Source: a virus
Virus record (IMG/VR): IMGVR_UViG_3300045739_000144
Span: 1-42,747 of that record
Reading direction: 5' to 3' (one strand)
Length of the DNA stretch: 42,747 nt
Part shown: in pieces, positions 8,970 through 36,468 of the stretch
Position numbering within the stretch: the stretch's first letter is position 1
How the letters are laid out: each line of letters opens with the position of its first letter
Notes under the pieces: model-generated
The model's input: only the letters and a program-made list of their open reading frames with translations
Told to the model about the DNA's origin: nothing
Database searches by the model: none
Translations under genes and position numbers: made by a program

Positions 8970-9004
8970 CGGAGCTTCGACCTCCTGCGCGCACCAAGCG
9001 CGCG

Positions 9005-9050
9005 AGTTCGTGAGTCGGTGTACCACACCCGAAGTGCACCCTCGGGGTGC
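9005..9050 (-). promoter_or_regulatory. palindrome plus promoter-like motif between portal and scaffold genes
   Basis: Just after the portal stop codon lies the palindrome GCACCCCGAGGGTGC (9036-9050 on the minus strand), then a 7-base spacer, then GGTGTGGTACACC. The latter resembles the motif found upstream of several other genes here (AAGTGTGG-TANNNT). Here the leader to the scaffold GTG is about 40 bases and contains a normal AGGAGG. The pair would let transcription of the scaffold and capsid genes start independently of the portal. Confidence 0.5.
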
Positions 9051-9051
9051 G

Positions 9052-11145
9052 CTAGACGCCCTCGTCCATCGGGCGCCCGCCTTGCGGTGCAGCGCGTGCG
9101 GCAGCGGAGAGCAGGTTGCCGGTGGTGGCCACCTGTCCGTTGGTCGGGTTGCCCGCGGCGTCACGTTGCTGCGGAAGGCCCGTGCCCTGTTGCTGCTCCT
9201 CGCCCGGCTGTTGCTGCGCCAGCATGGCGGCCTCTTGCGCCGCCTGCATGGCGGCAGCTTCCTGCTCGGTCGGCTGCCAGGGGATCAGGTCGCCCGCGCC
9301 CAGGCCGCGCAGGATCTCGGCGAGCAGATGGTCGGTGCGGTACTTGGGCTGCATCGTGAAGGGATCGATCTCCTGCTTGAGCAGCGAGTAGGCCTCCATC
9401 ATCTGCTTCAGGCGCACCGCCGATTCGGCCTTGGCGCGCGCGGCGAACTTCACATCCAGCCGGTCGCCTTCGAGGCTCGACCGCTTCCACAGGTGGAACT
9501 TCTCCACCCACTTGAAGCCCAGAAGCTGCGCGATCTGCTCGTCGGAGTAGTAGCCGCGCAGGAAGTCGCGCACGATCTCCAGCACATCGGCCGCCGCGAT
9601 CTCCAGTTGGCGGATCACATCGCCCGCTTGCTGGCGCCCGGCTTGGATCGCCTGCATCTCCTGCGTGGCGGTGTCGGCCACAGGGGCCGAAGAGATGTCC
9701 GACCACGGCATCCCGCTGGTCGAGGAGGTCACGCTCCAGACGCTCTGCATCAAGCGCGAGATGTCGAGCGCGCTGGAGTGGAACTGCACCGGCACCACGG
9801 TCTTGCCCGGGTCGGTCGAAGGATCGCGCCGCACCATCGTGCCGTCGATGCCCGCGCTCAGGGCCGCGATCGTGTCCTCGTCGAGGTTCTCGTCGTACTC
9901 GTAGATGCGCAGCGCGTGCCGCTTGGCCTGCGCAAGCTCGTAGGAGTGCAGCTTGATCAGTTCCTCTTGCTGCGGCCAGAACCGCTTGAAGAGCGGGAGG
10001 CCGTGCGTGCGCTCCGGCTTCTCGTCGTCGGACAACAGCGGCGCGATGATGCGGCAGGGGAAGAAGCCGCGCACGATCGGCTCGTAGTTGGCGTCGAGGT
10101 ACGGGTACGTCTCGTCCTTCTCAAGGTAGTACTCGCAGCCCTCGCTGACGTAGTGGCGCGTGCGGTACCGCTTGTCCCAGACCTCCCAGATCACGAGGCG
10201 CTTGTCTTCGAGGTCGGCGTCCGGGTCGTCGCCCCACTTGTAGGAGTCGAGCGGTTCGTAGCCTTCCTCCTGGGTGATGGGCTGCGGCTCCAGCTTGTTG
10301 ACCGCGGCGCGATCGAACTCGTCGCGCTGGAGGGCTTCCTCCTTGGTGTAGACGAGCTTGCGTGCCAGCCACCGCTTGTCCTGCTCATCCCAGACGGAGT
10401 GATCCCAGACGCACCACGTGCCCACGGGCAGGCGTCGGATCCAGACCTTGCGCGGCGAGGCGCGAAGCTCGAACGGCCCCTTGCGCTCGCGCGCCGCGAG
10501 GTCGTCGTGATCGTCGGCGGCTTCGAGCAGGGACTCGAACTGGTCGTCGTCCAGATCGAAGATCGCGTCCTCGTCGCCCGCTGCGCCTTCGAGCGCGGCC
10601 ACGATGTTCTCGTGATCTTGCCCAGCGCGCGGCGTGTGCTCGCCCTCCAGGGCTTCCTGCACGGCAAGCTCTGGATCGACGCTCATCTCCATCAAGCCCT
10701 TGCGGCTGACGATGTCGGAATGCTGACCGACCCAGATCGTCGTCGAGCCCTGCGTGCAGAGGGACGGGATCGCCGCCCGGAACTGCGAGGTGCCGCCTGC
10801 CTCGTTCCACACGCGCAGGAGCAGGCGCTCGTTCATGGTGGCGACATCCTCGTCGCCCTCGGCGTCGCGCGGGTACGTGATGATCGGGTTCTCGTCGGTC
10901 GCCTGCGACTGCATCCAGTCGAGGTAGCGACGCGAGAAGTTCACATCGATCTGATCCACGTGGGGCGCTTCGAGCCCTAGCTCGTTGGCGCCCGCCCCCG
11001 GGACCAGGGCCGGGAAGCTCAGGTTGGCCGCCTCCTTGTAGAGGTCGCGCTCGCTCTGGCCTCGACGCCAGACGGCGATGGCGGCGGCGATGCGGCGCAC
11101 CCAGAGGTCAGCGGGTTCGTTCGCTGCCTTGGACCGCTTGCGCAT
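9052..11145 (-). CDS. portal protein
   Basis: The 697 aa protein starts MRKRSKAANEPADLWVRRIA at ATG 11145, which overlaps the upstream stop. Size and layout match the larger podovirus portals (P22/T7-like class): a crown/stem region with YLDWMQSQATDENPIITYPR near residue 75, a clip-like acidic insertion (residues 170-225, FDLDDDQFESLLEAADDHDD), the conserved wing segment KVWIRRLPVGTWCVWDHSVW about 235, LPLFKRFWPQQEELIKLHSY about 390, and the channel-proximal helices with VWSVTSSTSGMPWSDISSAP followed by QEMQAIQAGRQQAGDVIRQL. It ends in a Gln/Ala-rich tail (AAMLAQQQPGEEQQQGTGLP). The portal forms the ring through which the terminase packages DNA and which anchors the tail. Adjacent terminase and scaffold genes support it. 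Confidence 0.85.
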   Translation of the reverse strand: MRKRSKAANEPADLWVRRIAAAIAVWRRGQSERDLYKEAANLSFPALVPGAGANELGLEAPHVDQIDVNFSRRYLDWMQSQATDENPIITYPRDAEGDEDVATMNERLLLRVWNEAGGTSQFRAAIPSLCTQGSTTIWVGQHSDIVSRKGLMEMSVDPELAVQEALEGEHTPRAGQDHENIVAALEGAAGDEDAIFDLDDDQFESLLEAADDHDDLAARERKGPFELRASPRKVWIRRLPVGTWCVWDHSVWDEQDKRWLARKLVYTKEEALQRDEFDRAAVNKLEPQPITQEEGYEPLDSYKWGDDPDADLEDKRLVIWEVWDKRYRTRHYVSEGCEYYLEKDETYPYLDANYEPIVRGFFPCRIIAPLLSDDEKPERTHGLPLFKRFWPQQEELIKLHSYELAQAKRHALRIYEYDENLDEDTIAALSAGIDGTMVRRDPSTDPGKTVVPVQFHSSALDISRLMQSVWSVTSSTSGMPWSDISSAPVADTATQEMQAIQAGRQQAGDVIRQLEIAAADVLEIVRDFLRGYYSDEQIAQLLGFKWVEKFHLWKRSSLEGDRLDVKFAARAKAESAVRLKQMMEAYSLLKQEIDPFTMQPKYRTDHLLAEILRGLGAGDLIPWQPTEQEAAAMQAAQEAAMLAQQQPGEEQQQGTGLPQQRDAAGNPTNGQVATTGNLLSAAARAAPQGGRPMDEGV

Positions 11146-11468
11146 CAGTCGCTCGTGGTGAGCGCGGGCGCGGAGGCTTCGAGCACCGGCACCTCGCCGT
11201 TGGTCGCGCCGCACAGGCGCTCCCATTGCCGGTAGGCTTCGTCAGCCCGCTGGCCCGCGTACTTCAACTGGCCCCACCCGCCGCTCTGGATGGTGGCGAT
11301 GATCGCCCGCCCGGTGAACTCCTCCTTGGTCAGGGGGAGCCCGCCGCTGCCGGGCATGGACGCGCGCAGCCGGGAAAGCTCGGAACGAAGCTCCGCGATC
11401 TCGGAGCGGAGCGCGACGATGTCTTCGTAGCGCGCGCGGCGCGCACGCGGTTGACGCTGGTTCTCCAT
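11145..11468 (-). CDS. small coiled-coil protein upstream of portal
   Basis: The 107 aa protein begins MENQRQPRARRARYEDIVAL. Residues 14-36 (YEDIVALRSEIAELRSELSR) form a leucine-heptad coiled coil. The C-terminal part (GRAIIATIQSGGWGQLKYAG; DEAYRQWERLCGATNGE) is globular. It has no recognised family. It lies directly between the palindrome/promoter module and the portal gene, with its stop overlapping the portal start, so it could be a portal assembly partner or a tape-like adaptor. No ribosome binding site precedes the ATG, and the promoter motif lies only ten bases upstream, suggesting a leaderless start. Confidence 0.55.
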   Translation of the reverse strand: MENQRQPRARRARYEDIVALRSEIAELRSELSRLRASMPGSGGLPLTKEEFTGRAIIATIQSGGWGQLKYAGQRADEAYRQWERLCGATNGEVPVLEASAPALTTSD

Positions 11469-11513: not shown

Positions 11514-11762
11514 TCAGTCGCGCAGCATCGCGAAGCCGTCGCGCAGCCGCTGGTGGTAGCTCGGCTCGGACGGGACATAGAGGGTCGGGTCAAGCTCCTC
11601 GGCCCAGGCCCGGTTGTTGTCGCGATCGAGGTGCCGCTCGTAGACGGTGGTGGGCTGCTTGCGCTTGGCGAGGCGCGTGGTGTTCGCGCGGAAGTAATGC
11701 GTGCGCCGCAGTTCCTCCGCGGTGAACACCTGTCCCCGGTAGACGACCAGTACGCCGCTCAT
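11514..11762 (-). CDS. small protein downstream of large terminase
   Basis: The 82 aa protein starts MSGVLVVYRGQVFTAEELRR. It is basic and mostly beta/helix mixed, with RANTTRLAKRKQPTTVYERH and LYVPSEPSYHQRLRDGFAML. I do not recognise the family. It is translationally coupled to the terminase: ATG at 11762 overlaps the terminase stop. That suggests a role in packaging or head completion, but no motif proves it. A repeated palindrome follows its stop codon. Confidence 0.5.
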   Translation of the reverse strand: MSGVLVVYRGQVFTAEELRRTHYFRANTTRLAKRKQPTTVYERHLDRDNNRAWAEELDPTLYVPSEPSYHQRLRDGFAMLRD

Positions 11763-13129
11763 CCGATCCTCCTGAAGTAGTCGCGCCACTTGTTGCGGCG
11801 CTCCAGCCGGTCGAGGGCCTCCAGGGTGAAGGGGTACTCTCCTTGCTGCGCGCGGCGTTCGGCGATGAAGGGCAGCGCGAGGATCTCGCTCGCCAGCGCG
11901 GCGGCGACCACGGCGTCGTCGTGCATCCCGTGCGGCGCGGCGTAGCGGTACTTGCCGCTGATCTCCAGAAGCTCGCGCGTGTAGACCTGAAACTCGTTGC
12001 GCTGCCAGCGCAAGTCGAGGAACGTCCACTCGGTGCGCTGGAAGAGCAGCCGCGCCCGCGTGATGTCCTCTTCCTTGTTGCGGTTCGTCCACTTCTTCGC
12101 GCGCGCGCCGTCGCCGTACTCGCGCCGCAGCCGCTCCATGACCGGCGTGCCCGCGCCCTGCTCGTCCACCACCACCGTGGCCCGGTTGTAGCGAGCGCGC
12201 AGTTCGCTGATCAGCTTCAACTGGTACTCGTACTCCTCGCCCTGGCAGCGCATCACCGCGACCTGTCGGCGCGTGCGGCGGTCGAAGATCGACAGGACCG
12301 TGAAGTCCTCGAAGCGCGCGAGGTCGAGGCCCGCGATGTACTTGCCCTCGGGCCGGGGCTCCTCGCCGATCCAGATGTAGCGTCCCTCGCTGCGCAGCAC
12401 CGGCAGCACGAAGGCCTCGTCGAGCCGCTCGAAGACCGCGCCCTCCTCGGTGATCCACTCGGCGTCGTACTCCTCGCGCCGCGTCAGGTCGTCGATGCAG
12501 TCCTCGCGCAGCCGGGCGAGGACTTGCTTGGACAGGTGCGGGTTCTCCTCGCTCGGTCCCTTGCCGCTCTTGTGGTGCGGGAAGGCGACCGCATCCTCCC
12601 CTTTGGTGAACTCGGCCCGGAACCACGTGAAGCCCACCCCCACACGCTTGGGCGTTCCCAGGAGCAGCGCCTTGCCGCCGTCGCCGTCGGCCAGCATCGG
12701 CATCAGCGTGGCGTAGTAGGCCTCGCTCACCACATCGGCGCACTCGTCCACGATCACGCGGTTGAGGCCCTCGCCGCGCAGGTTGTCGTGCTGCTCCAAG
12801 CTCCAGAACCAACCCTTCACCCCGGCGTTGTTGCCGAACGGGATCAGTTCGACGTAGAGGTCCGAGTCGCGCTTCTTCTTGATCAGCGGCCTGAAGAGTT
12901 GAACGAACTCCTGATAGACCTCGCGGGCGCGCTTGTAGGTCGGCGAGCAGTACGCGAACTTGTAGAGGCCCTTGTGGCGCGCGGCCTCGATGTAGCAAAG
13001 CTGGATCGCACCCTTCGTCTTGCCGTAGCGACGACCGACCGCCCAGATCACCACGGCGTAGATCAACGCCGCCGTGATCATGGCGACCTGTCCGGGGTGC
13101 GGCCTGATCTTCGGCGCGAACGTGCTCAC
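11759..13129 (-). CDS. terL: terminase large subunit
   Basis: The 456 aa protein starts with GTG at 13129 (MSTFAPKIRPHPGQVAMITA). It holds all packaging-motor motifs. Walker A is GRRYGKTKG (residues 32-40), followed by CSPTYKRAREVY (motif around 60). Walker B with catalytic Glu is RVIVDECADV (D128, E129). The coupling motif lies near LLLGTPKRVG. The RNase H-like nuclease half has IAGLDLARFEDFTVL (first Asp), ATVVVDEQGAG (second acid) and GMHDDAVVAAALA (terminal Asp pair). The protein pumps DNA through the portal with ATP and cuts concatemers. The type of packaging (headful or cos) cannot be read from the motifs. The start codon has no ribosome binding site but a promoter-like motif (CACTTGTGG-TAGCGT) six bases before it. 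Confidence 0.93.
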   Translation of the reverse strand: MSTFAPKIRPHPGQVAMITAALIYAVVIWAVGRRYGKTKGAIQLCYIEAARHKGLYKFAYCSPTYKRAREVYQEFVQLFRPLIKKKRDSDLYVELIPFGNNAGVKGWFWSLEQHDNLRGEGLNRVIVDECADVVSEAYYATLMPMLADGDGGKALLLGTPKRVGVGFTWFRAEFTKGEDAVAFPHHKSGKGPSEENPHLSKQVLARLREDCIDDLTRREEYDAEWITEEGAVFERLDEAFVLPVLRSEGRYIWIGEEPRPEGKYIAGLDLARFEDFTVLSIFDRRTRRQVAVMRCQGEEYEYQLKLISELRARYNRATVVVDEQGAGTPVMERLRREYGDGARAKKWTNRNKEEDITRARLLFQRTEWTFLDLRWQRNEFQVYTRELLEISGKYRYAAPHGMHDDAVVAAALASEILALPFIAERRAQQGEYPFTLEALDRLERRNKWRDYFRRIG

Positions 13130-16009: not shown

Positions 16010-16504
16010 TCACGGGCCTCCTGCGGCGTCGTCCTCGGCGACCGGCTCGACCTCGCCGACCGGCTCGATGTAGGCACGGCGTGCAGGCACGATCGTGTCG
16101 GCCGCATCGGTCTGGGCTTCGAGCGCCGGATCGTCGGAGTGGGATTCAGCGGACGCCGAGATCACCTCGCCCGTGAGCGGGTCGAGCACCGGCTTCGGCG
16201 CACCGTCCAGGGCGACCTCGACGCGACGACCGAAGTCCGCCGGGTGACGCCGCTCCAAAAGCCAAGCGGCAGCCTTCCACGATGTCTCGCCCGCCTTGTC
16301 GATGCGGGCAAGCTGCCGCGCGACGAACATCGTCCGCGCTCGATGGATCGCGATGTCGAGAGCTTCGTCGTCCTTGCGCCAACGCCAGAGCGTCGTCGGG
16401 TCGATGCCTGCGGCGCGCGCCGCTGCCTTGACCGGCAGGCCTTCTTGCACGCGGGTGACCACATCCAGCACCGTTTGCTCGCTTCGTTTCGTTCTGGCGC
16501 TCAT
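16010..16504 (-). CDS. putative terminase small subunit (HTH DNA-binding protein)
   Basis: The 164 aa protein starts MSARTKRSEQTVLDVVTRVQ, with a GGGGAG site five bases before the ATG. Residues 10-45 form a helix-turn-helix (GLPVKAAARAAGIDPTTLWR). The core contains the stretch ETSWKAAAWLLERRHPADFG (about 78-97), a hallmark of one class of small terminase subunits. The acidic C-terminus (SAESHSDDPALEAQTDAADT; EVEPVAEDDAAGGP) could contact the large subunit. It would recognise the packaging site on DNA. It is separated from the large terminase by an inverted 2.2-kb block, which is unusual. An alternative is a transcriptional regulator. Confidence 0.6.
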   Translation of the reverse strand: MSARTKRSEQTVLDVVTRVQEGLPVKAAARAAGIDPTTLWRWRKDDEALDIAIHRARTMFVARQLARIDKAGETSWKAAAWLLERRHPADFGRRVEVALDGAPKPVLDPLTGEVISASAESHSDDPALEAQTDAADTIVPARRAYIEPVGEVEPVAEDDAAGGP

Positions 16505-21801: not shown

Positions 21802-21877
21802 GGGGCGATAGCTCAGTTGGTAGAGCACGTGGCTGGCAGCCACGGGGTCAGGGGTTCGAGTCCCCTTCGCTCCACCA
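21802..21877 (+). tRNA. tRNA-Ala (anticodon GGC), CCA encoded
   Basis: A full cloverleaf is visible. The acceptor GGGGCGA pairs with TCGCTCC with one G-T wobble. The D arm is GCTC-AGTTGGTA-GAGC. The anticodon arm is CGTGG-CTGGCAG-CCACG with anticodon GGC. The variable loop is GGGTC, and the T arm is AGGGG-TTCGAGT-CCCCT. Discriminator A and CCA are encoded. The wobble is G3-T70, the classical identity element for alanyl-tRNA synthetase. GCC is a very common codon in this genome, so it may support late translation. It lies about 670 bp upstream of the integrase. Confidence 0.95.
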
Positions 21878-22306: not shown

Positions 22307-22455
22307 AACGGACACGCTAGGACACCTCGGCTCGACGGCTGGAGGCCGGTTTGACGGGGGCAGACCCCGCCAGACGCTGCGATCCGCGAGATGGCATTGC
22401 GAGGATCCGCGCTCCCTGGCCCCAACGAATGGCCCTCTCCAGCCTTTTCGGTTTT

Positions 22456-22478
22456 CGTGCCTGCACGCCGTGCCTTCA
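22456..22478 (+). repeat. CGTGCCTGCA direct repeats, cluster 2
   Basis: A further exact copy lies at 22456 and a variant (CGTGCCTTCA) at 22469, 13 bases on. Together with cluster 1 this gives six sites flanking a 150-bp spacer immediately upstream of the integrase gene. Confidence 0.6.
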
Positions 22479-22479
22479 T

Positions 22480-22510
22480 CCTACACTTGTGGGTGCCCCC
22501 GACGGGGGCA
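22480..22510 (+). promoter_or_regulatory. promoter-like motif and hairpin upstream of integrase
   Basis: The sequence has TACACT (TANNNT) at 22482, then TTGTGGG, then a perfect palindrome TGCCCCC-GAC-GGGGGCA (22494-22510). Initiation about seven bases after the hexamer would put the hairpin at the 5' end of the integrase mRNA. AGGAG lies six bases before the integrase ATG. Confidence 0.45.
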
Positions 22511-22543
22511 GGGGACACCGAGACTCAACGAACAGGAGAAGCC

Positions 22544-23875
22544 ATGAAGATCCTGCGACACAAGGTCAGCCCCGCGGGCACCCGCGAGGACAAGAGCGAG
22601 ACGAAGCGCCTCTCCCGTGAGGAGGGGCGCGCTCGTCGCAAGAACGTCGAGACGTTCCGCGCGAACATCCGCGTCTACACCGACGAGGGCGTGAAGAGCA
22701 CCAAGGTCACCGTGAAGCTCGACAACGGTCGTCCGCTGGTCGTCGAGCGCAACCGCCAGGGCAAGATCACGAACCAGCGCGAGGCCGATGTCCTCGGCGA
22801 GCACGCGGCGCAGGCCTACATCGCTTCGCTGGAGCGCAAGGCGTTGGAGGAGAAGCTCGACGAGGTCAGCGACTACGAGGCGCGCTGGCACGCTTCCCTG
22901 GACGAGCGGTGCGAGCAGCGCCTGCCCAACGGGCGACGCGCCTTCGCGCTCAAGACGGCGCGCGACTACAAGCGGCACCTCTCCAGTAGCTTCCTGAACT
23001 CGACACGCGCCAAGGACGGCAAGCGGTGGCGCGACATCTCCCCGCTCGACTGGACGGTGGTGGACTTCCACCGCTGGTTCAAGGACGAGATCAAGGCGCG
23101 CGGCGTCGGCTTCTCGTGGGCGAACCAGTTGCAGTTCATCGTCGGCACGTTCTGCAAGTTCCTGCGCAAGCAGGGCGTCGCGGTGCCCGTGCTCAACGAG
23201 GAGCGTCACCCGGTGACCGAGGACGACGCCAAGGTCTTCGTCCCCGCCAAGGTCGAGAAGCGCGTCACGTGGTACTCGCCCGACGAGTGCCAGAAGATCC
23301 TGAAGTGCGCCCGCACGTGGAAGAACCGCTACGGCTACTTCGCGGGGATGTACCTGCCCGTCGCCATCGCGATCTACCTGGGCCTGCGCATCAACGAGAT
23401 CTTCTGGCTGCGCTGGGACTACTTCGACCTCAAGAAGAAGGTGCTGCACCTCGACCCGGCGATCGTGAAGTGCGAGGACGCCGAGACGCCGTACCTCGAT
23501 CTGCCCGACGACCTGATCGTCGCGCTCAAGAGCGTGCCCGCTGCGGTGCGTGACGCGCGCGACGAGAAGGGGCACGGCTCCTGGGTCATCTGGCCCGAGT
23601 CGCCGCGCAACGAGGGCAAGGACTTCAACAGCCGCGACGACGTTCTGAAGGACATCGTCACGGCGGCGAAGTGCTCGCGCGAAGAGGGCGACGGCTGGCA
23701 CCGCTTCCGCCGCAGCGTCGCGACGAACCTGCTCGCCGCGGGCATCGAGGAGGGCGATGTGAAGAGCATCACGCGCCACACCTCGAAGGCCTTCGACCGC
23801 TACAAGGGTGCCGCCGCCAAGGCCGCGCAGCGCAAGCGTGCGGTGAAGGGCATCAACGCCGTCTACGGCAGCTAG
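22544..23875 (+). CDS. int: tyrosine recombinase (integrase)
   Basis: The 443 aa protein starts MKILRHKVSPAGTREDKSET, after a clear AGGAG. The N-terminal 100 residues are basic and likely bind arm-type DNA sites. Residues 110-230 are the core-binding SAM-like domain (TARDYKRHLSSSFLNSTRAK; WANQLQFIVGTFCKFLRKQG). The catalytic domain has Arg at LGLRINEI (R282), the HxxR box WHRFRRS (H386, R389), the third-box His in ITRHTSK (H412) and the nucleophile FDRYKG (Y420). It integrates the phage into the host chromosome and, with an excisionase, removes it. The Xis-like gene lies divergently upstream. Direct repeats just upstream would be its arm sites. A start at 22391 is possible but lacks the ribosome binding site. 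Confidence 0.95.
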   Translation: MKILRHKVSPAGTREDKSETKRLSREEGRARRKNVETFRANIRVYTDEGVKSTKVTVKLDNGRPLVVERNRQGKITNQREADVLGEHAAQAYIASLERKALEEKLDEVSDYEARWHASLDERCEQRLPNGRRAFALKTARDYKRHLSSSFLNSTRAKDGKRWRDISPLDWTVVDFHRWFKDEIKARGVGFSWANQLQFIVGTFCKFLRKQGVAVPVLNEERHPVTEDDAKVFVPAKVEKRVTWYSPDECQKILKCARTWKNRYGYFAGMYLPVAIAIYLGLRINEIFWLRWDYFDLKKKVLHLDPAIVKCEDAETPYLDLPDDLIVALKSVPAAVRDARDEKGHGSWVIWPESPRNEGKDFNSRDDVLKDIVTAAKCSREEGDGWHRFRRSVATNLLAAGIEEGDVKSITRHTSKAFDRYKGAAAKAAQRKRAVKGINAVYGS

Positions 23876-25877: not shown

Positions 25878-26623
25878 TAGCCACCTCCGTCGCTCGGCGG
25901 GATCGGGGAGCTACCTGCCCCCGCGGGCGGGGGGAACTCAGCCTTCTCCGCAGAGGGCTTCTCGAAGGGCTGCAAACCAGTCGCAGTCCGAGCGGCTGCC
26001 TCGCTGACCTTGCCGATCGTCTCGGCATCGGCCCGCCCGTCGGTGCTCGAACTCGACACCCCGAACTGGTTCACCACGGCGTTGTCGAAGCGGTTGTGCG
26101 TCACGTGCGAGACGTTGCTCGCCGACTGGGCTGCGCTCAGGGCTTCCTGCGCCCGCGCCAGCCCGGCGCTGATCGTGTCGATCCGATCCGGCGGCGTGCT
26201 GAGATCCGTCAGCGCAAGCTGCAGCATCGCCCGGTAGGCCGCCACCGTCTTGGCGGCTTCGAGCACGTTCAGGTTCGTGCCCCCGCCGCCCGCGTGCGAC
26301 AGAGCTTCCGTCGGAAGCACCACGCCCAGGTTCTGCGAGCCGCCCGAGGCCACGTGCCGCTGCTCGTGCGAACTGTCCTCCAGCGTCGCCGCCCCCGCCC
26401 CCCGGCTGTTCACCACGTTGGGCGACAGGCGGGCAAGGTCGCGAGCGTAGGGCGCGTTGTCCGATCGCTGGCCCCCCGCCGCAGCGGCGGCTGCGTTCGA
26501 GGAACCCGGCGTAGGGTTTGCGATCGTGGCCTCGGCTTCGGCGCATTCGTCGCAACCGGAGCCGGGTCCGCTGGTGCACGCGGCCACGAGGCACGCGAAC
26601 AGGACGAGAACGGGGTAGCGCAT
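25877..26623 (-). CDS. larger lipoprotein with Ala-rich ectodomain
   Basis: The 248 aa protein starts MRYPVLVLFACLVAACTSGP at ATG 26623, with GGAGG six bases upstream. The signal peptide ends in a lipobox LVAAC with the modifiable Cys at residue 16. The mature part holds two more Cys (GSGCDECAEA), a low-complexity Ala/Gly segment, a helix around NVLEAAKTVAAYRAMLQLAL and DTISAGLARAQEALSAAQSA, and a Pro/Gly/Ser-rich end. It may be exposed in the periplasm or on the cell surface. I do not recognise the domain. Its frame pairs with the small lipoprotein, suggesting a two-component envelope function such as spanin-like lysis or exclusion. Confidence 0.6.
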   Translation of the reverse strand: MRYPVLVLFACLVAACTSGPGSGCDECAEAEATIANPTPGSSNAAAAAAGGQRSDNAPYARDLARLSPNVVNSRGAGAATLEDSSHEQRHVASGGSQNLGVVLPTEALSHAGGGGTNLNVLEAAKTVAAYRAMLQLALTDLSTPPDRIDTISAGLARAQEALSAAQSASNVSHVTHNRFDNAVVNQFGVSSSSTDGRADAETIGKVSEAAARTATGLQPFEKPSAEKAEFPPPAGAGSSPIPPSDGGG

Positions 26624-26684
26624 GGATCCTCCAGTCCCGCGACGGCAGGGGGGCGGGAGCATCACCGTCACCCCCGCCGCGCGG

Positions 26685-26748
26685 ACCCGCATTCTAGCCC
26701 GCCCACACTTGCGCTAGCCGAGGCCTCGTGCAACCTTGGGTTGCATGA
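26685..26748 (-). promoter_or_regulatory. long hairpin and promoter-like motif upstream of lipoprotein operon
   Basis: On the minus strand, CCTCATGCAACC-CAA-GGTTGCACGAGG (26722-26748) forms a 12-bp stem with one G-T pair. CAAGTGTGG follows at 26704-26712 and TAGAAT at 26692-26697. The hairpin is the longest version of the palindrome family found elsewhere. It also separates the lipoprotein operon from the RNA gene region. Confidence 0.5.
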
Positions 26749-26997
26749 GGCTGCATCGACTCGGAAGCGTTCCCGGCGGGTGCCGGGCTGGCGGGCATTA
26801 CCCCCCGGATCAGGATGCTGCCCTCGCTCTGGATACGCCGTCGCTGACTCCGAGTGCTCCGGGTTGTGGGTTGCCCTCGCCCGTCGCAGCACGTGCCGAA
26901 GCACTCCCTCGTGGGGTGAATGTTTCTCCGAAGTACGGGCACGGGCCCGTCGTCGGCAAGTACCGAGGAGAGCGACCGGATGAAACGGCACCGAACC
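26749..26997. other. unexplained non-coding region upstream of SRP-like RNA
   Basis: These 249 bp contain no frame of natural composition. GCTCCGAGTGC-like sequence is repeated at 26847 and 27010, and ACGGGCCCGT at 26941 is a 10-bp palindrome. The 7-mer GGAAGCG at 26763 is the exact complement of the acceptor strand at 27236-27242, which may be chance. The region may hold the promoter or a 5' domain of the RNA that follows. Confidence 0.35.
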
Positions 26998-27096
26998 GTG
27001 CGGTGTCGGCTCCGAGTGCGCGAGCGTGTGAACCGGGTCAGGTCGGAGACGAAGCAGCCCTAAGCACGCACGCCGCTGCGGAGCGCAGTACCGCAC
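26998..27096 (+). ncRNA. SRP RNA (4.5S-like) encoded by phage
   Basis: The apical region (27035-27060) carries the conserved SRP RNA domain IV: GGGTCAGG, then TCG-GAGA-CGA (GNRA tetraloop), then AGCAGCCC. This matches the E. coli pattern GGTCAGG-TCC-GGAA-GGA-AGCAGCC, with a compensating base change in the closing stem. GTGTGAACC before it and TAAGCAC after it also match the conserved flanking loop. Further helices extend the hairpin: CTCCG (27010-27014) with CGGAG (27079-27083), and GTGCGGT (26998-27004) with ACCGCAC (27090-27096). The total of about 100 nt fits a bacterial 4.5S-type RNA, which binds Ffh and targets nascent membrane proteins. The exact ends are uncertain. Confidence 0.85.
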
Positions 27097-27213
27097 GCCA
27101 CGTATCGCAACGCCCGGAACCTCACCACGGGAACCCGAGACGCGCACGGGCCCAGGCATTGGAGCGGATCCCTAGCCAGCACGGTAAGACCACGAAAGAG
27201 CGAGTGCACCAAG

Positions 27214-27246
27214 CGTCGGCGGGTTCGAGTCCCGTCGCTTCCGCCA
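27214..27246 (+). other. tRNA-Asp-like 3' end fragment; candidate attP core
   Basis: GCGGG-TTCGAGT-CCCGT forms a T arm. CGCTTCC with G and CCA forms a 3' acceptor end. The match is best to tRNA-Asp 3' ends. I find no D arm or anticodon arm in the 100 bases upstream, so this is a fragment rather than a gene. Tyrosine integrases often use such tRNA 3' ends as the common core of attP and attB. The fragment abuts the stop codon of the giant gene. Its distance of 3.3 kb from the integrase is larger than usual. Confidence 0.55.
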
Positions 27247-27249
27247 CCT

Positions 27250-30200
27250 CTACTTGCTGCGCCCGAGGCCCCGGCCCTCGCCGATGCGCCGCACCTCGGG
27301 CAAGCCGAACCGCTTGCGCTGCATCTCGAAGAAGTCGTCGCGCGACTCCTTGATCTCCTCGGGCGTCTTCTCCGCTTCCGCGCGCTGCTTCTCGTCCAGT
27401 TCAAACAACTCGGGGAAGCGTGCCCACATCTCCTCCAGGGTCAACTCGTCGGCGTCCTCGACCGTCGCGTTGCCGCTGGCGATCAGGTACTCCTGCACGC
27501 GCTTGAGGAGCTTCTCGCCCATGTCGTCGAAGAGCTTCTCCTTGTAGTCGGCGTCGAGCGTCTTGTCGCGCGCGTAGCCCTTCATCGTGTCGAGCGTGTC
27601 CTGCATCCGGCGCAGCGCCTTGCGCACGTTGGCGTCCTGCACCTCGTCGAGGTTGATGTGCTGCTCCTTCCAGAACGTGCCGATGTCGAGCACCGTCGGC
27701 AGGAGGTCGCGCTTCTTCTCGCCCAGCCGGTCGATGGGCGATTGGTCAAACGCCTGCATCAGCTTGTTCCACGAGTAGCCGCCCGTGCCCTTGCCGAAGA
27801 AGGCGGGGAAGAGCGGCGGCATGAGCGCGTTGACGAGGAAGCGGATCGTCTTGCGTCGGTACTCGCGCGGCGCCTCCTCGGGCAAGGTGATCTCGTCGCC
27901 CGTGAAGAAGTTCCGGTTGGAGAGAAGCTGGATGCCGATGCCGACGAACGGGTTGAGCGGCAGGTTCAGCACGCGCTTGCCGCCGCTGAACAGACGGTCC
28001 ATCAGGTCGTCGCCCGTGAACAGGTTGTGCAGCCCCGTCACGTACTGCGCCCACGGCATGGCGTTGGTCAGGTTGAGCACGCCGAAGTCTCCCTCCTTCG
28101 AGAGGTAGGGCAGCGGCAGCACCATCGGACCCGTGCGCATCCAGGGCGGGAGGTTCGCCTGCACGAGATCCTCGTCGTCGCCCAGCCCGGTCGCCGCCCA
28201 GAGCGCGCGCCCCAGCGCGTTCCACATCACCCAGGTGAAGACGCCGAAGCGGAACGGACGCTGCGACAGGTGGCGCAGCCCGATGCGAAGCTCCTCGGAA
28301 CGGAAGGTCAGGAAGGCAGGCGTCACCGTGCGCAGCCCGCGGTTGTGCTTGCCCTGCGTGATGAGTGAAGTCCACGCCGTCTCGTAGGTCGGGTAGTTCA
28401 GCCGCACCTCGCGCGCCGCGTCCTCGATGCTCATCTTCTTGAGCATGATCTTCTTCATGGCCGCGCTGACCTTGGGGAAGACATCGGCCATGCGGTAGAA
28501 CCACATCATCCCCAGCGCGCCCGTGCCCGCCTCCATCAGGCGGCCCTTGCCCAGGCGCTCGACGAAGCGCGCCTGCCAGTTGTTCAGCTTCTGGCCCCAG
28601 GTCTTGCCCGGCACGCGCGCGACCTCGTCCACCATCGCTTGCAGTTCGCTGGTCACGGCGTCCGAGGAGATCACGCGCAACTCGATCAGACGGCGGTGCA
28701 GCTTGCCGTGCACCGACTCGGGATCCTTCGCGCTCAAGACCTTCGCGGCCTCGGTGAAGAACTCGTAGTCCCCAGGGTTGAAGTAGGAGATGCCGTCCAT
28801 CTCCATGAAGAGCGAGTTGGAGATGGCATTCCTCAGTTGCGTCGATGGGTTTGCCACAGTTTTCGCCATCTTCCATTGCGAGAGCGCGTAGTCGTGTATC
28901 CGCAGCGCCGTCTCGACGGAGACGAGCGAGGTGTCGCGTTCGCCGAACTCGCCCACCAGCATCTTCTTCAGCTTCGGGTGGACGTAGCGTGCGTTGAGCG
29001 CGCCGTAGCGGGAACCCCTGCGACCCTCGGGCATCTGCTCCCAGCCCTCGACCTCCTTCCCGAACGGAGCGACCATGCGCTCGTTGCGCCCCAGCCGCTG
29101 GAAGAGTTCGAGGTGCGCCTTGACCGCAGCCTGCGAGGCCAGCGCGCGCGCCACCAGCACGCCCGCATCACGCACCTCGCCCAGCGCCTCGCGCACTTCC
29201 TTCGGCAGCGGCTCAATGATCTCGGTGTGCGTCAGCTTCGCGCGCTCCTTGAACAGGCGCTGCGACTCCTTCTTCCCCTCGTAGAACTTCTGCGCGTCCA
29301 GTCGCAACTTGTGCAGCGGGTTGCGCAGGCCTCGGTACTTCGGCGAACGCGGACGGAACGTCTCCCTCTGCGTCGGCCCGCTGCCCGACTGCCACGTGAC
29401 CAGGGCCCCGCCGTCCTTGAGCCAGTAGATGTTCACGTTGCGCGGCGCCTTCTTGCGCAGCGACTCCGTCTCGCGCAGCCGGGCCTGATAGGCCTTCGCC
29501 TCTTCGAGCGTCTTGAACGGCTTGGACTGCGTGCGCCCGCCGCCGTAACGGAAGTCCACCCAGTAGCCGTCGAGACGACGGTGCACTTGCTCGACCTTGT
29601 AGCCGCGCTTGCCTCCCTTGCCCTCCGGCTCGGGCTCGTTGCGCAGACGGCGCGCGAGGATGTCGAGCAGGCCGAAGGCAGCCTTGAACTCCTTCTCCTC
29701 GTAGATGCGCGGCAGCCACTCGCTGACCGTCTGCCCGTCCTCCACGCGCGACCAGCGACCGCGCGTGTTCTCGGTCATGTGCCCGAGGCGCACCATCTCG
29801 TACTGCCCGGCCGTGATCAGGTCGCGCAGCCGCACCGCTGCCTCGGCCTGCTCGCGGCCGATGGCGTTCTCGATGTGCGCGCGCGTGACCTTGCCGACGG
29901 CTGCCACATCCTCGCCCGTGAAGAAGCGCACGAGCACCTCGTTGCGCACCGGGTCGAGCGGCTTGCCGTCAGGCCCCGTGCCCATGCGCTGGATGTACTT
30001 GAACGCCACCCATTGCGCCGCGCTCTTCGCCGCCTCCGCGTCCGCGATCTGCGCTTGCACCTCCATCGCGATCTTGAAGGGGTCGGTGATGCCGTTCTTG
30101 ATCAGGTTGCTCACGGCTGCGCCGACGTTGACCGGCGGCTTGCCGAAGATCGCGCGCGCTGCGCTGGTCAGGAAGGAGGCCACCCAGCCGGTGGGCTTGA

Positions 30201-33200
30201 GCACGCCGTAGGTCAGCGCGCCCCGGCCCAGCCCGGCCAGACGCTTGGGCACCTTGAGCTTGCGCAGCGGCGCATCGACCAGATCGGTGATGCCCTCGCG
30301 CCCGAGGAGCTTGTCGTGCACGAAGCCCCACGAGCGCGCCAGCATCCGCAGCGTGCCCGGCCCCTCGTCCAGCCCGGCGAAGAGCGAGTTGAGCTTCGTC
30401 GGCGACGGGCGCTTCACATCCTTCTGGAAGTAGTCGTAGATGGCGGCGTCGGCTTCCGCGCGGTTGCCTTCGAGCAGGACGCGCGCCTCCTCCGCGCTGA
30501 CGGCGATCGGCTTGTTGCGGAACAGGTCGTCGAAGACCTTGCGCACTTGCTTGGGCACGCGCGGCAGGGTCTTGATGCTTTCGTAGGTGTCGCGCACCGA
30601 CGCGCTCAGGACGGCGAAGGCGTCGCGCAGTTCCGTCGTCGGCGCACGCCCGTCGGCCACGTAGCGTTCCATCATGCGCGCCAGCGTTTCGTGCTGGTGC
30701 GTCGTCCACTCCAGCGGGTCTGCGCTCTTCGCGTTCAGCGTCTTCGCGAGCCGCTGACGCGACGCCTCGGGCAGGGTCCAGACGAAGACATGACCGAGGA
30801 GTTCGTGGATCGCCGTCGTCGCGTCGGCGTGCTCGGTGAAGTAGACCTCGAAACCGCCGCGGTTGAGGAAGCGCGTCAGACCCTTGACCACGCCGTGGTG
30901 CACGTGCTCAGGCTTGGTCGTCGGCTCGTTGAGCTTGTCGATGAAGTCGAGGATCTCGCGCGGCACCTTGCGCTGCGCCAGCACGATGTCGCGCGCGAAC
31001 TCGCGGCCCGTCGTCCGGTCGTAGCGACCGAAGCCGCCCGGCAGGCGCGGGCTCGCGATGGTCACGCCGTAGGGACGCATCCGCGCGACGACCCGCTGTT
31101 GCGCATCGGTCAGCTTGGCCCCGCCCACCTCCACGTTGAAGCTGCCATCGCGCTGCACCCGCATCACGCGCGCCACGTTGGTGCGCTCCATGAAGCCCAC
31201 GAGGTCACGCTCGCGCGCACCCTTGCCCTCGAAGATCTTCATGCCCAGCTTCTCGAAGATCTCGCGGGCCTGCATCGAGTGCGTGCCGCCCTGCATCGGG
31301 ATGAAGCGTCCCTCCGGGGTGATCCAGCCCGTGCCCAGGTCGCGGCTCTCCTTGCCGAGAAGCTCGATGGCGCGCTCGGCGTCGAACTCGCCCTCGGGCG
31401 GACGGTACTTGCGGCGGGCCTCGCGCTGCTTCTCGAACGCCTTCTCGCGCTTGCCGGGCTTGAGCTTGCCGCGCGCGATGCCTCGGTTCGCCGCCGCCTG
31501 CGTGATCGCACCGCGCCGGGCCAGGGCGTTGAGGGCCTCCTGCACGTAGCCCTGGCGGGCGAAGCTCTTCTCGAAGTCGGCGCGCACCTCCCTGGTGCGG
31601 GCCTTGGCCTCGAACTGCGTGGTGCCGACGACGGTGCCGTCGTCCAGGCGCCACTCGTACTTGCCCTCACCCACCTCGACGTACTGCATCCGCTCGGTGA
31701 TGCCGATGTCGCGCCCGCTCTTGGGATCGATGAACTCGTACAGCGCGTGCTGGCTCTCGCGCCGTCCGACCTCGGCAGCCTCGAAGGCAGCGCGCGCACC
31801 ATCGAACTGAGCGACGGCGTCGAGGTAGAAAGTGCCGGACTCCTTGTCGAGCCAGACGCCGCGATGGTGCCCCGGCTTGAGGACATGCTGGATGGTGTCC
31901 TCGTAGAACTCGCGGAACGCTGCCTCGGCTTCTGCCTCCGACATCGTGCGCGGGTCGAGCACACGCCCGCGCCGCGCATCCGTCGTGACGATGATGCCGC
32001 TCGTGACGAGCGTGCCGTCCTTGGCGATCGTCGCGCCGCCTTCGCCCTCTGCTAGGGCTTGCGCGATGACGGAGCGGAAGGCTTCCCAGTCCGCTTGGCC
32101 TTGCGCCACAAGCTCATCATACGACTGACGAACTCGTCCTCGCCCAAGCTGTTGTCCCCGACGATCTCCAGATGCACGCCCGAGTCCTGCTTGGAACTCC
32201 TCTTCGGTGAGGAAGTCTCCGAGGGCTCGGTCGGCGAGGGCTGCTCGCTTGGGCTCCGGCTTAGGAACCCGTCCAGCGGCAGCGGCTCGGAGAGCTTCTG
32301 CTCCTGTAGCCACTTCTTCGCGCGCTCTAGCCCAGCGGTGTTCTCGCGAAGCGACCGCGCCCGTTGCTCGTTCTGTTCCCGAGATGTCAACCTCGCCGAT
32401 GTCTCGGGATCGGACGGGTTCGAGCCCTCGCGACCGGACGAGTTCTTGCGCGGCTTGGGCATAGTCCTGTGCCTCCGGGGGCTTGGCCCCGAACTCGGCG
32501 ACGAGTTCGTGCTCATGGTACCAGTCCGCAGCCTGGAGGTCGCGCATTGTGACGCCGTAGATCTCGGCGGCGCGACGGGCTGCCTCCTTCCAGAGCGTGC
32601 GCTGGATGCGCCCCTCGGGCGATTCGAGGAACTCGCCCGTCTCGCGATAGGACTGGCCCAGGCGGCGGTTGTTGGCCCGTGCGACCCATTGGTCGGCGGT
32701 GTAGTCGTCGATCTGGTTCTGGTTCAGGTAGAAGGGGCCGCCCTTCATGCCCATGACGTAAGCGCCGGGGTGCAGCCCCGGGTCCGACCTCGTGATGATC
32801 TTCGGGTCGGCGTTCCACTTGTAGATCTCGGAGGCCGGATGCTCGGTGAGCATCCAGCGGATGACCTCGTCCCACGAGCCCATCGCTTCGCGCATCCGGT
32901 TGAGGCGCGCAATCCCCTTCTCGACCGGCTCCGCACGGTACGTCCACCCGATGCCGCTCTCCTGCCGCATGGGCATCGGCCCGGTGCGATCACCCCATGC
33001 CTCCCACACACGCACCGCCGCGTTGAAGTTCGTCTTGGGCTCGTTGCCGAAGCTCGTCACCGTCTGCACGAGCAGGAACGTGTTCCACGTAACGTCGAAG
33101 GTGCGGTCCTTGCCGTCGATCTTGACCGTGACCTGGGTGTCGTTCTCCGGCAGCAACTCGGGGAAGATCTTGCCGAGGTTGAGGCGCTCCAGCTTCATCA

Positions 33201-36200
33201 TCTGGTCGTACCAGCCGAAGCCGTTCACCTTGCCCCATTGCACGTGGTCGATCACATCTTCGAGCAGCCGTCGCGTCAGCACGTTGATGACGCGCTCGGC
33301 GTTGGCAGGATCCTTCTGGTAGAGCTTGAGCCAGTTCTCGTCGCCCAGCTTCTCGCGCATCGCGCGGTAGATCCCGGCGTACACATCATCGACGAGCACC
33401 TCGCCGCGCTTGCCGGTCGGAATGATCTCGATGCGCGCGCCGCCCAGGTCGCGCTTGTAGACCTCTTGGAAGAGATCGTGCGCACCGGGATGCGTGCCCG
33501 CGCCGACGCCCCGGATGTTGCGCGCCACGAACTCCTCGACCGGCTCTCCGGTGCGCTCACCCCAGGCCCGCGCCGCGTTCTCGACCATGGTCATCACGGC
33601 ATCGACCTGACGGTCCACCATGTTCGTGTACTTCGTCAGCGCGTCGCGCAGGTTCTCCAGGGTGTACCCCGAGATGTCCTCGCCCGGCTCGGGCCCGTAC
33701 TTCCAGTTGAGCCTCTTGCCGTCGGGCGTGATGATGTCGTCGTCGGGCATCCGCACATCGAAGTGACGCGAAGCGAGCAGCACCATGGACTCGTTGGCGA
33801 GGTCGTTGATGCGCGCGTGCCGCTGGTGACGGACCTCCTTCTCGGAGAGCGTGAGCAGCCGAAGCTGCCCCTCCTGATCGACGGCGAGCACCGACTCCGA
33901 ACCGTCCTTCCACCGCTGCGAGGTGATCGTCGCGTAGCCCTCGCGCTCGGCGAACAACGTGGCTTCCTGGGCCTCGATGTCGGGGACCGCCCTGGTGTCG
34001 GCCTCGGCCTCCGCGTGCCGCCCCAGCCGGTTGCGGAACTCGCTGCGGCGCGTGGCGCGCTCATCGCGCGGAAGCTCGTCGAAGCTGCGCCAGACCTCCA
34101 CCTCCTTGGGCGAGAGCATCCTGATCTCGGGGCCGCGCTGGTGACCGGGGCCGCGCTCGTACAGACGGATGTTGCCGTCGGGCTCCTCGACGTAGATCGC
34201 GCGCTCGTAGCGTTCGAGGTCGGTGCCCGCAGGACGCACCCGCCCCGTCGGACGGTACGGGCCCTCGATGTGCGCCCGGTCGCCCGTCACACGCACGGGC
34301 AGTTCCTTGACCTCCTTCGTCGCGCGCACCACGGCGTCGCCCTGCGCCATGCCGCCGTCGGTCAGTTCCTTCACGCGCTGCGTGAACCAGTCCACGCGGC
34401 CCTCGCTGAAGATCATCTCCAGCGGGATCTCCACATCGTTGAGGTCGCCGTCCTTGGCCTTGCGCGACTCCAGGGCTTCTTCGAGGAAGCGGATGCCGTC
34501 CTCTTCCGTCAGCGTCTTGCGCTGGCGCATCGTCTCGCGGATGCGTTTGGCCGTCTCGGCATCGATGCGGTCCACCGCACGCGCGAGCGCCTCGGCACGC
34601 ACCACGCCCTCGCGCAGGACCGGCGGCATGAACTCGTTGCCCGCGCCGTAGACGCGGGTGCGCATCATCTTCCACGTGCCGTGCGCTCCGAACATCAGGC
34701 CCATGCCCAGCCCGTGCGCGAGCGTCTCCTCGTTGATCAGGGACTCGCCCGCCAGCGCGCGTTTGAGACGGTCCTGCTCCGTCGAGAAGATCAGGTCGTC
34801 GGCGATGGTCGCGAAGTTCGAGGCCAGCGTCATACCGACGGCTTCGGCGAACATACCGCGCGCGTAGGCTGGGGTGCTATCGGCGAGCGCACGCAGGAAG
34901 CCGTAGACCTTGGGCGTCGCTGCCTTGCCGATGCTGGCGGCGTATCGCTTGGCGTGCGCACTCCACGCACCCTCGCCGCGCGCCAAGCCCATGGTGCGCG
35001 CCAGCGGCATGGCCGCACCGAAGAGCGACAGGTGGAACGCCTCGCGCCCCTTGCCTCCCAGGCCCTTGAGTAGGTCGAACCGCCCCTCCTCGTCGTAGAA
35101 GCTGCCGTTGAGCATCCCGTAGGTGCCCATGCCCAGGACGCTGCCCCAGTAGCTCGCCGTGGCCTGGGAGAGGCCCGCCTTGACCATGCCCTGCGTGATG
35201 CGCGAGGAGAGCGCGTGCACCCCGACGAGGAACGGCAGCGTCTCGATGACCTCGCTGCCCAGCTTCTCGGCGAAGCTCGCCTGCTCGCGGAATGCACGCG
35301 CCGCCCGGTCCTTGCGCTCGGGCGTAAGTGCATTGAGTTCGTCGATCCAGTTCAGGTTGACGATGCCTGCCGACCCGACTTGAGTCGCGCCCGTGACGGT
35401 TAGATGGATGCCGCGCAGCACCCACGATTCGAGCCACTTCGCCTTCTCTTGGTAGATGACATCCTCGTTGGCCTCGGCCACGCGATAGATCTGTTGCGCG
35501 TAGCGGACGAAGAGATGCGCAAGCTGTTCGTCGGCCTCCTTGTCGCCCGCTTGGAAGCGCAGGAAGTTCTCGGTGAACGCCTCCTCGGTGAGGCCGCGCT
35601 GGTCGAGGTCGTCGCGCAGGGCGCGGATGCCCTCTTGGATCACGTACACCGACGAGGGCGGGATGCTCACCTGTTCGTGACCGGCGGCCCCGATCGCGCG
35701 TCCCATGCGCGTGCCGCTGCGGCGGTGCGGGCGCAACGTCAGCGCACCCATGCCGCGCTCGTCGGGCAGGGCTCGACCACCTCCCTTCTCGCTACCGTCG
35801 TACTGGTTGCGCCCGCGTTCGTAGTGCGCGTGGAAGAGATCCCTCATCAGCGCGTTCACGCGCTGGTTCAGCTTGTTCTCCGCAGTCAGCGAGTCCTGCG
35901 CTTCCTCCTCGAACTGGGTTCCTGCGCGCGTGCCGCTCTCCAGTTCGTCGTAGGTCGGCACGTGCCCGCCGCGAAGCAGCGCCATGTCCACCATGGCGGG
36001 CTGCGGGCTGAAGGCCTCGCCCAGCGGCGCGTCGTCGGCTTGGACCGCGCCACGGCGCACGCCCCAGTCGTAGATCGCTTGCGCCTGCTCGGGCGAGAGA
36101 TCGCGACGCTCGCCGTCGGCGTCGGTGTACGCCCAGGCGCGACCGCCCAACGTGTGATCGACGCCGAGAAGCTCGCGCACGCCGATGTACTCGGTCGGCA

Positions 36201-36468
36201 TCTTGAGCGGGGTGCGCTCGTAGCGTGCACCGAAGAAGTGCTCGGGCACGCGGCGGTGCCAGTCGGGCTGCACGCTGCCGTAGCCGAACTGCCCGATGCC
36301 GCGTTCCTGCTCCGCGCGCTTCTGGCGCTGCTTGAGCCAGTCGAGCACGGCGTCGCCCGCGCTCTCCTGCTCCTGCGGGTCGTCCTTGGTGACCGCATCG
36401 GCGGGCGATGTTGGCTTGACCTCGGTGCCGCCGCGCTTCTTGAGCCATTCCTCCAGTTCGTCGCTCAT
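27250..36468 (-). CDS. giant polyvalent/internal virion protein with metallopeptidase-like domain
   Basis: The 3072 aa protein starts MSDELEEWLKKRGGTEVKPT. It is preceded by two smaller probable internal proteins, as in T7 gp14-gp15-gp16. Around residues 410-600 are hydrophobic helices (EVIETLPFLVGVHALSSRIT; ASYWGSVLGMGTYGMLNGSF), possibly for membrane insertion. HELLGH at 1888-1893, followed by THQHETLARMMERYVADGRA, resembles the HExGH metallopeptidase domain of phage polyvalent proteins, with one extra residue in the motif. Near 2540, WKMAKTVANPSTQLRNAISN matches another polyvalent-protein segment. The C-terminal 500 residues include further hydrophobic helices. The protein is expected to be ejected with DNA and to act in the envelope or cytoplasm. 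ATG at 36468 overlaps the upstream stop. Confidence 0.75.
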   Translation of the reverse strand: MSDELEEWLKKRGGTEVKPTSPADAVTKDDPQEQESAGDAVLDWLKQRQKRAEQERGIGQFGYGSVQPDWHRRVPEHFFGARYERTPLKMPTEYIGVRELLGVDHTLGGRAWAYTDADGERRDLSPEQAQAIYDWGVRRGAVQADDAPLGEAFSPQPAMVDMALLRGGHVPTYDELESGTRAGTQFEEEAQDSLTAENKLNQRVNALMRDLFHAHYERGRNQYDGSEKGGGRALPDERGMGALTLRPHRRSGTRMGRAIGAAGHEQVSIPPSSVYVIQEGIRALRDDLDQRGLTEEAFTENFLRFQAGDKEADEQLAHLFVRYAQQIYRVAEANEDVIYQEKAKWLESWVLRGIHLTVTGATQVGSAGIVNLNWIDELNALTPERKDRAARAFREQASFAEKLGSEVIETLPFLVGVHALSSRITQGMVKAGLSQATASYWGSVLGMGTYGMLNGSFYDEEGRFDLLKGLGGKGREAFHLSLFGAAMPLARTMGLARGEGAWSAHAKRYAASIGKAATPKVYGFLRALADSTPAYARGMFAEAVGMTLASNFATIADDLIFSTEQDRLKRALAGESLINEETLAHGLGMGLMFGAHGTWKMMRTRVYGAGNEFMPPVLREGVVRAEALARAVDRIDAETAKRIRETMRQRKTLTEEDGIRFLEEALESRKAKDGDLNDVEIPLEMIFSEGRVDWFTQRVKELTDGGMAQGDAVVRATKEVKELPVRVTGDRAHIEGPYRPTGRVRPAGTDLERYERAIYVEEPDGNIRLYERGPGHQRGPEIRMLSPKEVEVWRSFDELPRDERATRRSEFRNRLGRHAEAEADTRAVPDIEAQEATLFAEREGYATITSQRWKDGSESVLAVDQEGQLRLLTLSEKEVRHQRHARINDLANESMVLLASRHFDVRMPDDDIITPDGKRLNWKYGPEPGEDISGYTLENLRDALTKYTNMVDRQVDAVMTMVENAARAWGERTGEPVEEFVARNIRGVGAGTHPGAHDLFQEVYKRDLGGARIEIIPTGKRGEVLVDDVYAGIYRAMREKLGDENWLKLYQKDPANAERVINVLTRRLLEDVIDHVQWGKVNGFGWYDQMMKLERLNLGKIFPELLPENDTQVTVKIDGKDRTFDVTWNTFLLVQTVTSFGNEPKTNFNAAVRVWEAWGDRTGPMPMRQESGIGWTYRAEPVEKGIARLNRMREAMGSWDEVIRWMLTEHPASEIYKWNADPKIITRSDPGLHPGAYVMGMKGGPFYLNQNQIDDYTADQWVARANNRRLGQSYRETGEFLESPEGRIQRTLWKEAARRAAEIYGVTMRDLQAADWYHEHELVAEFGAKPPEAQDYAQAAQELVRSRGLEPVRSRDIGEVDISGTERATGAVASREHRWARAREEVATGAEALRAAAAGRVPKPEPKRAALADRALGDFLTEEEFQAGLGRASGDRRGQQLGRGRVRQSYDELVAQGQADWEAFRSVIAQALAEGEGGATIAKDGTLVTSGIIVTTDARRGRVLDPRTMSEAEAEAAFREFYEDTIQHVLKPGHHRGVWLDKESGTFYLDAVAQFDGARAAFEAAEVGRRESQHALYEFIDPKSGRDIGITERMQYVEVGEGKYEWRLDDGTVVGTTQFEAKARTREVRADFEKSFARQGYVQEALNALARRGAITQAAANRGIARGKLKPGKREKAFEKQREARRKYRPPEGEFDAERAIELLGKESRDLGTGWITPEGRFIPMQGGTHSMQAREIFEKLGMKIFEGKGARERDLVGFMERTNVARVMRVQRDGSFNVEVGGAKLTDAQQRVVARMRPYGVTIASPRLPGGFGRYDRTTGREFARDIVLAQRKVPREILDFIDKLNEPTTKPEHVHHGVVKGLTRFLNRGGFEVYFTEHADATTAIHELLGHVFVWTLPEASRQRLAKTLNAKSADPLEWTTHQHETLARMMERYVADGRAPTTELRDAFAVLSASVRDTYESIKTLPRVPKQVRKVFDDLFRNKPIAVSAEEARVLLEGNRAEADAAIYDYFQKDVKRPSPTKLNSLFAGLDEGPGTLRMLARSWGFVHDKLLGREGITDLVDAPLRKLKVPKRLAGLGRGALTYGVLKPTGWVASFLTSAARAIFGKPPVNVGAAVSNLIKNGITDPFKIAMEVQAQIADAEAAKSAAQWVAFKYIQRMGTGPDGKPLDPVRNEVLVRFFTGEDVAAVGKVTRAHIENAIGREQAEAAVRLRDLITAGQYEMVRLGHMTENTRGRWSRVEDGQTVSEWLPRIYEEKEFKAAFGLLDILARRLRNEPEPEGKGGKRGYKVEQVHRRLDGYWVDFRYGGGRTQSKPFKTLEEAKAYQARLRETESLRKKAPRNVNIYWLKDGGALVTWQSGSGPTQRETFRPRSPKYRGLRNPLHKLRLDAQKFYEGKKESQRLFKERAKLTHTEIIEPLPKEVREALGEVRDAGVLVARALASQAAVKAHLELFQRLGRNERMVAPFGKEVEGWEQMPEGRRGSRYGALNARYVHPKLKKMLVGEFGERDTSLVSVETALRIHDYALSQWKMAKTVANPSTQLRNAISNSLFMEMDGISYFNPGDYEFFTEAAKVLSAKDPESVHGKLHRRLIELRVISSDAVTSELQAMVDEVARVPGKTWGQKLNNWQARFVERLGKGRLMEAGTGALGMMWFYRMADVFPKVSAAMKKIMLKKMSIEDAAREVRLNYPTYETAWTSLITQGKHNRGLRTVTPAFLTFRSEELRIGLRHLSQRPFRFGVFTWVMWNALGRALWAATGLGDDEDLVQANLPPWMRTGPMVLPLPYLSKEGDFGVLNLTNAMPWAQYVTGLHNLFTGDDLMDRLFSGGKRVLNLPLNPFVGIGIQLLSNRNFFTGDEITLPEEAPREYRRKTIRFLVNALMPPLFPAFFGKGTGGYSWNKLMQAFDQSPIDRLGEKKRDLLPTVLDIGTFWKEQHINLDEVQDANVRKALRRMQDTLDTMKGYARDKTLDADYKEKLFDDMGEKLLKRVQEYLIASGNATVEDADELTLEEMWARFPELFELDEKQRAEAEKTPEEIKESRDDFFEMQRKRFGLPEVRRIGEGRGLGRSK

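Follow-up and report, generated by a model that had tools for sequence, protein, structure and literature searches.

The window, which is the whole of IMG/VR record IMGVR_UViG_3300045739_000144 (42,747 bases, linear, high GC), contains a 99-nt segment that is very probably a genuine RNA gene of the signal recognition particle (SRP), of the small bacterial type. The gene has two lipoprotein open reading frames (ORFs) to its left and a convergent 3072-aa gene to its right (Table 1), and its carrier is a temperate tailed phage. SRP RNA is among the core RNAs common to all cells; this small RNA steers newly made membrane proteins to the membrane. A first-pass annotation, made from the sequence alone, had proposed a phage-borne SRP RNA next to two lipoprotein genes at this locus. 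The lipoprotein ORFs are where it placed them, and the RNA is supported by its covariance-model match and its fold, by the phage genes of the record, and by its recurrence in other phages.

Table 1 Features of the window and of other SRP-bearing viral records (L-numbers are IMG/VR stretches from tip searches)
Feature	Position	Strand	Basis or remark
SRP RNA gene, small bacterial type, 99-nt rod	26998–27096	+	Covariance model, fold
Asymmetric loop, 5′ side GAACC	27030–27034	+	Fold; 3′ side is TAA, 27061–27063
Domain IV tip: 4-bp helix, symmetric loop CAGG/AGCA, stem TCG/CGA, GAGA tetraloop (27046–27049)	27035–27060	+	Sequence, fold, covariation among phage tips
tRNA-Asp(GTC) 3′ end, candidate attP core, 28 nt	27220–27247	+	26-nt exact match to tRNA-Asp ends
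Small lipoprotein ORF, 68 aa	25671–25877	−	Lipobox LVAAC; no family match
Lipoprotein ORF, 271 aa	25877–26692	−	Lipobox LVAAC; no family match
3072-aa phage gene, structural module, convergent with RNA gene	27250–36468	−	phrog_9880 (function unknown), E 4e-10
Terminase large subunit (TerL)	11759–13129	−	phrog_2, E 5e-32; PF03237 and PF17289 above cut-off
TerS	16010–16504	−	
Portal	9052–11226	−	
Scaffold	8001–9164	−	
Major head protein	6974–7954	−	
Tyrosine-type integrase	22391–23875	+	phrog_1, E 2e-19; PF00589 above cut-off
Complete tRNA-Ala(GGC) gene	21802–21877		
Domain IV hairpins near tRNA genes	L012:3020–3045, L015:511–536, L016:10634–10659, L017:79–104, L029:1160–1185, L030:78–103, L032:652–677, L034:9160–9185, L039:4958–4983, L129:114–139		
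Predicted four-base-anticodon (gaga) tRNA; CTA-anticodon tRNAs	L015:82–172; L039:5175–5389; L196:4841–4915, 5850–5924		
Partial match to a phage 'translation elongation factor' family	L191:7702–8898		phrog_6880, E 5e-28

The covariance-model search that the first-pass annotation had suggested gives a match. When the record is compared with all 4227 Rfam families by cmscan, positions 27006–27090 match RF00169 (Bacteria_small_SRP) with 43.7 bits (gathering score, 40) and an E-value of 2.7e-6; a search with this family only gives an E-value of 6.4e-10. The only other family whose gathering score is exceeded in the record is tRNA-Ala, at 21802–21874. A domain IV pattern allowing up to three mismatches finds one match in the record, with no mismatches, and shuffled sequences average 0.06 matches.

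The segment folds into a single closed rod (−54.1 kcal/mol, z −3.65), and none of 200 shuffled sequences folds as well. The terminal bases 26998 and 27096 pair with each other, and both arms are paired to the end. The outer helices, predicted in the first-pass annotation to extend to about 100 nt, thus close exactly at the two bases that it gave. At the tip the GAGA loop caps a 3-bp stem. The symmetric loop separates this stem from a 4-bp helix, and the asymmetric loop separates that helix from a 27-pair distal arm. On the plus strand the tip reads GGGTCAGG-TCG-GAGA-CGA-AGCAGCCC, preceded by GAACC and followed by TAAG (27061–27064), in agreement with the domain IV and AACC/TAAG flanks that had been described. 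The GNRA tetraloop, the CAGG/AGCA loop, and the asymmetric loop of RF00169 domain IV are all found. Although the tip stem differs, the tetraloop and the loops that contact Ffh are retained. As with E. coli 4.5S RNA and other members of RF00169, the molecule is an unbranched rod of about 100 nt closed by its 5′ and 3′ ends, without an Alu domain. It differs from them in being encoded by a phage that carries no Ffh.

The carrier is a real phage. TerL marks the record as phage, and TerS, portal, scaffold, major head protein, a RusA-like resolvase, and an exonuclease are also encoded. Structural genes occupy the minus strand between the terminase and the left end, and again between the right end and position 27250. 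Although its ends do not connect in a single frame, the record is read as a circularly permuted, near-complete temperate phage genome. An inverted repeat, CCCGGCAT/ATGCCGGG, flanks the complete tRNA-Ala(GGC) gene, which precedes the integrase gene by about 500 bp. Short hairpin-like repeats of the GGTTGCACCCTCGGGTTGCGCTT type occur at 9032, 11492, 16672, and 38865, several of them intergenic.

A copy of a tRNA-Asp 3′ end, absent from the first-pass annotation, lies 123 nt from the SRP RNA gene, between it and the stop codon of the 3072-aa gene. An exact 26-nt match to it occurs in 15 bacterial contigs, mostly of Alphaproteobacteria, where it always forms the end of a tRNA-Asp. Neither ARAGORN nor Rfam calls a tRNA, complete or decayed, at 27160–27250; only the 3′-end match is present. 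Because the phage encodes an integrase, the copy is most simply read as a predicted attP core, and the gene content, integrase plus tRNA 3′-end copy, is that of a temperate phage with a tRNA attachment site. The SRP RNA gene would therefore lie at the edge of the integrated prophage, beside the two lipoprotein genes.

The 24-nt tip core, comprising the TCG/CGA stem and the GAGA loop, is absent from all 84,980 bacterial and archaeal species genomes searched (one genome per species). Among 299 genomes of Pseudomonadota (the phylum of stretch L134; Alphaproteobacteria) and 199 genomes of Acidobacteriota (the phylum of stretch L138), similarity is confined to the tip, reaching 92% over 36 nt at best, and none of the 498 has a match to the outer helices. 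As far as tested, the gene does not appear to have been captured recently from a host, but capture from an unsampled host may have occurred. Among cultured phages (INPHARED, blastn, six queries) there is no convincing phage match, and blastn is too insensitive for the shortened forms described below. One hit, in an Acinetobacter 'phage' record, falls in a chromosomal region next to recA and lpxA and was discarded; an unannotated faecal contig, MT835820, matches at 83% over 35 nt.

Similar hairpins occur in other viruses. A scan of IMG/VR with the tip pattern yielded 45 stretches, and two further scans added more. After filtering, 16 viral lineages besides this phage carry an SRP-like hairpin: L005, L007, L009, L012, L015, L016/L042, L017, L022/L043, L029, L030/L045, L032, L034, L039, L053/L077, L087, and L129. 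Stretches L002, L003, L006, L008, and further ones that share a single near-identical SRP RNA were omitted as apparent host chromosome at a prophage edge, and L013, L019, L020, L025, L035, and L044 were omitted because their apical stem does not pair. In L004, L010, L028, L036, L046, L062, L069, L103, L108, L116, L118, and L128 the stem pairs, but the sequence is likely host or coding, and they were not counted. Phage status is certain for L012 (TerL and T4-type gp23), L017 (gp23), and L053/L077 (TerL), and typical phage genes lie near the hairpins of L016, L005, and L029; L009, L022, L034, and L039 are classed as phage by IMG/VR alone, and a transposase lies near the L009 hairpin.

The 16 distinct phage tips give 112 pair cells, every one of which holds a standard pair. 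Five of the seven tip pairs vary on both sides and the other two are invariant, in a comparison in which the apical stem belongs to the selection pattern and the second pair partly does. The outermost tip pair, which lies outside the search pattern, is paired in all cases, with four pair types. The first-pass annotation had taken the TCG/CGA stem, TCC/GGA in E. coli, as a compensatory change under selection, and the pairing across these tips supports that reading indirectly. The phage-borne SRP RNA is part of a wider set. That no class of SRP RNA phages is established, as the first-pass annotation held, agrees with our search of the full text of 5.4 million open-licence papers, which contains no report of a phage-encoded SRP or 4.5S RNA and leaves most subscription papers uncovered; IMG/VR, on the other hand, shows that such phages recur.

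The copies come in two forms. Full rods are found in this phage, L009, L022/L043, L053/L077, and L087; those of the huge-phage contigs L053 (497 kb), L077 (372 kb), and L087 (290 kb) lie in or near tRNA arrays. The hairpin is 6–18 nt from a tRNA gene in 10 of the 16 other lineages, and in one set of 16 loci nine such adjacencies were seen against 0.5 expected by chance. The space at these tips often fits just a hairpin of about 40–55 nt. Therefore, most tRNA-adjacent copies are domain-IV-only "mini SRP RNAs". L034 has no helix past the tip and L030 has a longer arm; in L005 and L007 a strong terminator-like hairpin comes after the mini hairpin. The SRP54 family (Ffh, FtsY) is not represented among the proteins of the 25 records checked, indicating that any function must rely on host proteins.

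Like the tRNAs of phage arrays, within which the SRP hairpin lies in ten lineages, the RNA is a phage-borne copy of a translation-related stable RNA of the host. Unlike them, it serves protein targeting and not decoding, and this phage has a single complete tRNA gene (Ala), about 5 kb from the SRP RNA. The arrays themselves look sorted: among L012, L015, L016, L191, and L192, some are limited to Leu, Ser, Phe, and Tyr tRNAs, none of which is present in the 28-tRNA array of L045. A predicted tRNA with a four-base anticodon and CTA-anticodon tRNAs (amber readers, labelled Pyl by ARAGORN) are found in SRP-bearing phages. The L191 phage record, with its partial elongation factor match, also has a tRNA array and a mini SRP RNA.

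In structural work on the E. coli complex (PMC5454536), FtsY binds the tetraloop first, after which the NG heterodimer relocates to the distal part of the rod and a base of the RNA there triggers GTP hydrolysis. We propose that the phage RNA would be transcribed and would bind host Ffh through the conserved domain IV loops, and that its GNRA tetraloop would dock FtsY. With a rod of about normal length, it would give a functional SRP, adding to host 4.5S RNA or taking over part of its role, and phage membrane proteins and lipoproteins may thereby stay targeted during infection or lysogeny. A working supplementary RNA is favored because the phage RNA has both ends of the rod, the tip and the distal arm. 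Taken as a whole, mechanism included, the statement that a genuine phage SRP RNA loads host Ffh and supplements host 4.5S RNA has about an even chance of being correct.

Several observations weigh against it. The RF00169 score exceeds the cut-off just modestly. No sigma-70-like promoter was recognised in 26600–27400, where the host may use another promoter type, and no terminator was recognised downstream of the gene. Searches of IMG/VR with the portal, terminase, head protein, and integrase found no close relative of the phage, and the only TerL relatives there, 26–30% identical, lack the SRP RNA. Finally, the distal arm is missing from many other phage copies, which may therefore not work as full SRP RNAs.

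These copies are an argument for a different role, in which the phage RNA would act as a decoy or modulator, competing with host 4.5S RNA for Ffh and FtsY and slowing or redirecting host membrane targeting. Most phage copies in tRNA arrays are domain-IV-only, with the docking site for Ffh and FtsY and no space for the distal region that triggering of GTP hydrolysis requires in E. coli (PMC5454536). Since these mini forms keep the docking site and lack the distal arm, they are at least as likely to stall targeting or to serve as decoys. The phage of the window likewise encodes no Ffh of its own. Its RNA, however, is a full rod, to which the argument from the missing arm does not apply, and we regard a decoy role here as rather unlikely. 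A broader proposal, which we hold tentatively, assigns both roles: full-length rods would be replacement RNAs, and mini hairpins, made with tRNA arrays, would bind Ffh and FtsY without triggering GTP hydrolysis and so stall or retune host targeting. The RNA of this phage would be among them, carried at the prophage edge.

The gene could also be a passenger, a host SRP gene that was captured near the attachment site, does nothing for the phage, and either persists by chance or is decaying. It is the sole such copy known in this phage lineage, and it lies beside the attP-like core, at a prophage edge where host DNA can enter. The absence of the tip core and the outer helices from the cellular genomes searched argues against such an origin, as do the fully paired rod, unlike a decaying copy, and the recurrence of SRP tips across many other viral lineages; we consider a passenger unlikely. 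A further possibility is that the host SRP RNA gene is the integration site of this phage or of an ancestor, and that the sequence is an attachment-site remnant. This has a precedent in contig IMGVR_UViG_3300024309_000099 (L004, L036), where full and partial SRP copies stand about 14 kb apart, probably because an element has inserted into the SRP RNA gene of its host. Both are mobile elements with SRP RNA sequence at the edge, but in that element the partial copy is the att site, whereas the copy of this phage is complete at both ends and adjoins a better att candidate, the tRNA-Asp 3′ end. This origin is highly improbable. The high GC content, the linear record, and the lack of a close relative would also fit a chance resemblance or a misassembly joining host and phage DNA; given the E-value of the family search, the rarity of the pattern in shuffled sequences even at three mismatches, and phage genes on both sides of the RNA, we give this almost no weight.

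What is new is not the RNA family, which is known, but the carrier, the tip, and the reduced relatives; the wider set of viral SRP RNAs is apparently unreported. Similar or shortened copies in more than 12 other viral lineages suggest that phages repeatedly tap into the SRP pathway. If the recurrent viral SRP RNA holds true, phages would act on protein targeting through RNA, either adding to it or disturbing it, and the phage mini forms would be natural minimal SRP RNAs for probing the need for the distal arm in cells.
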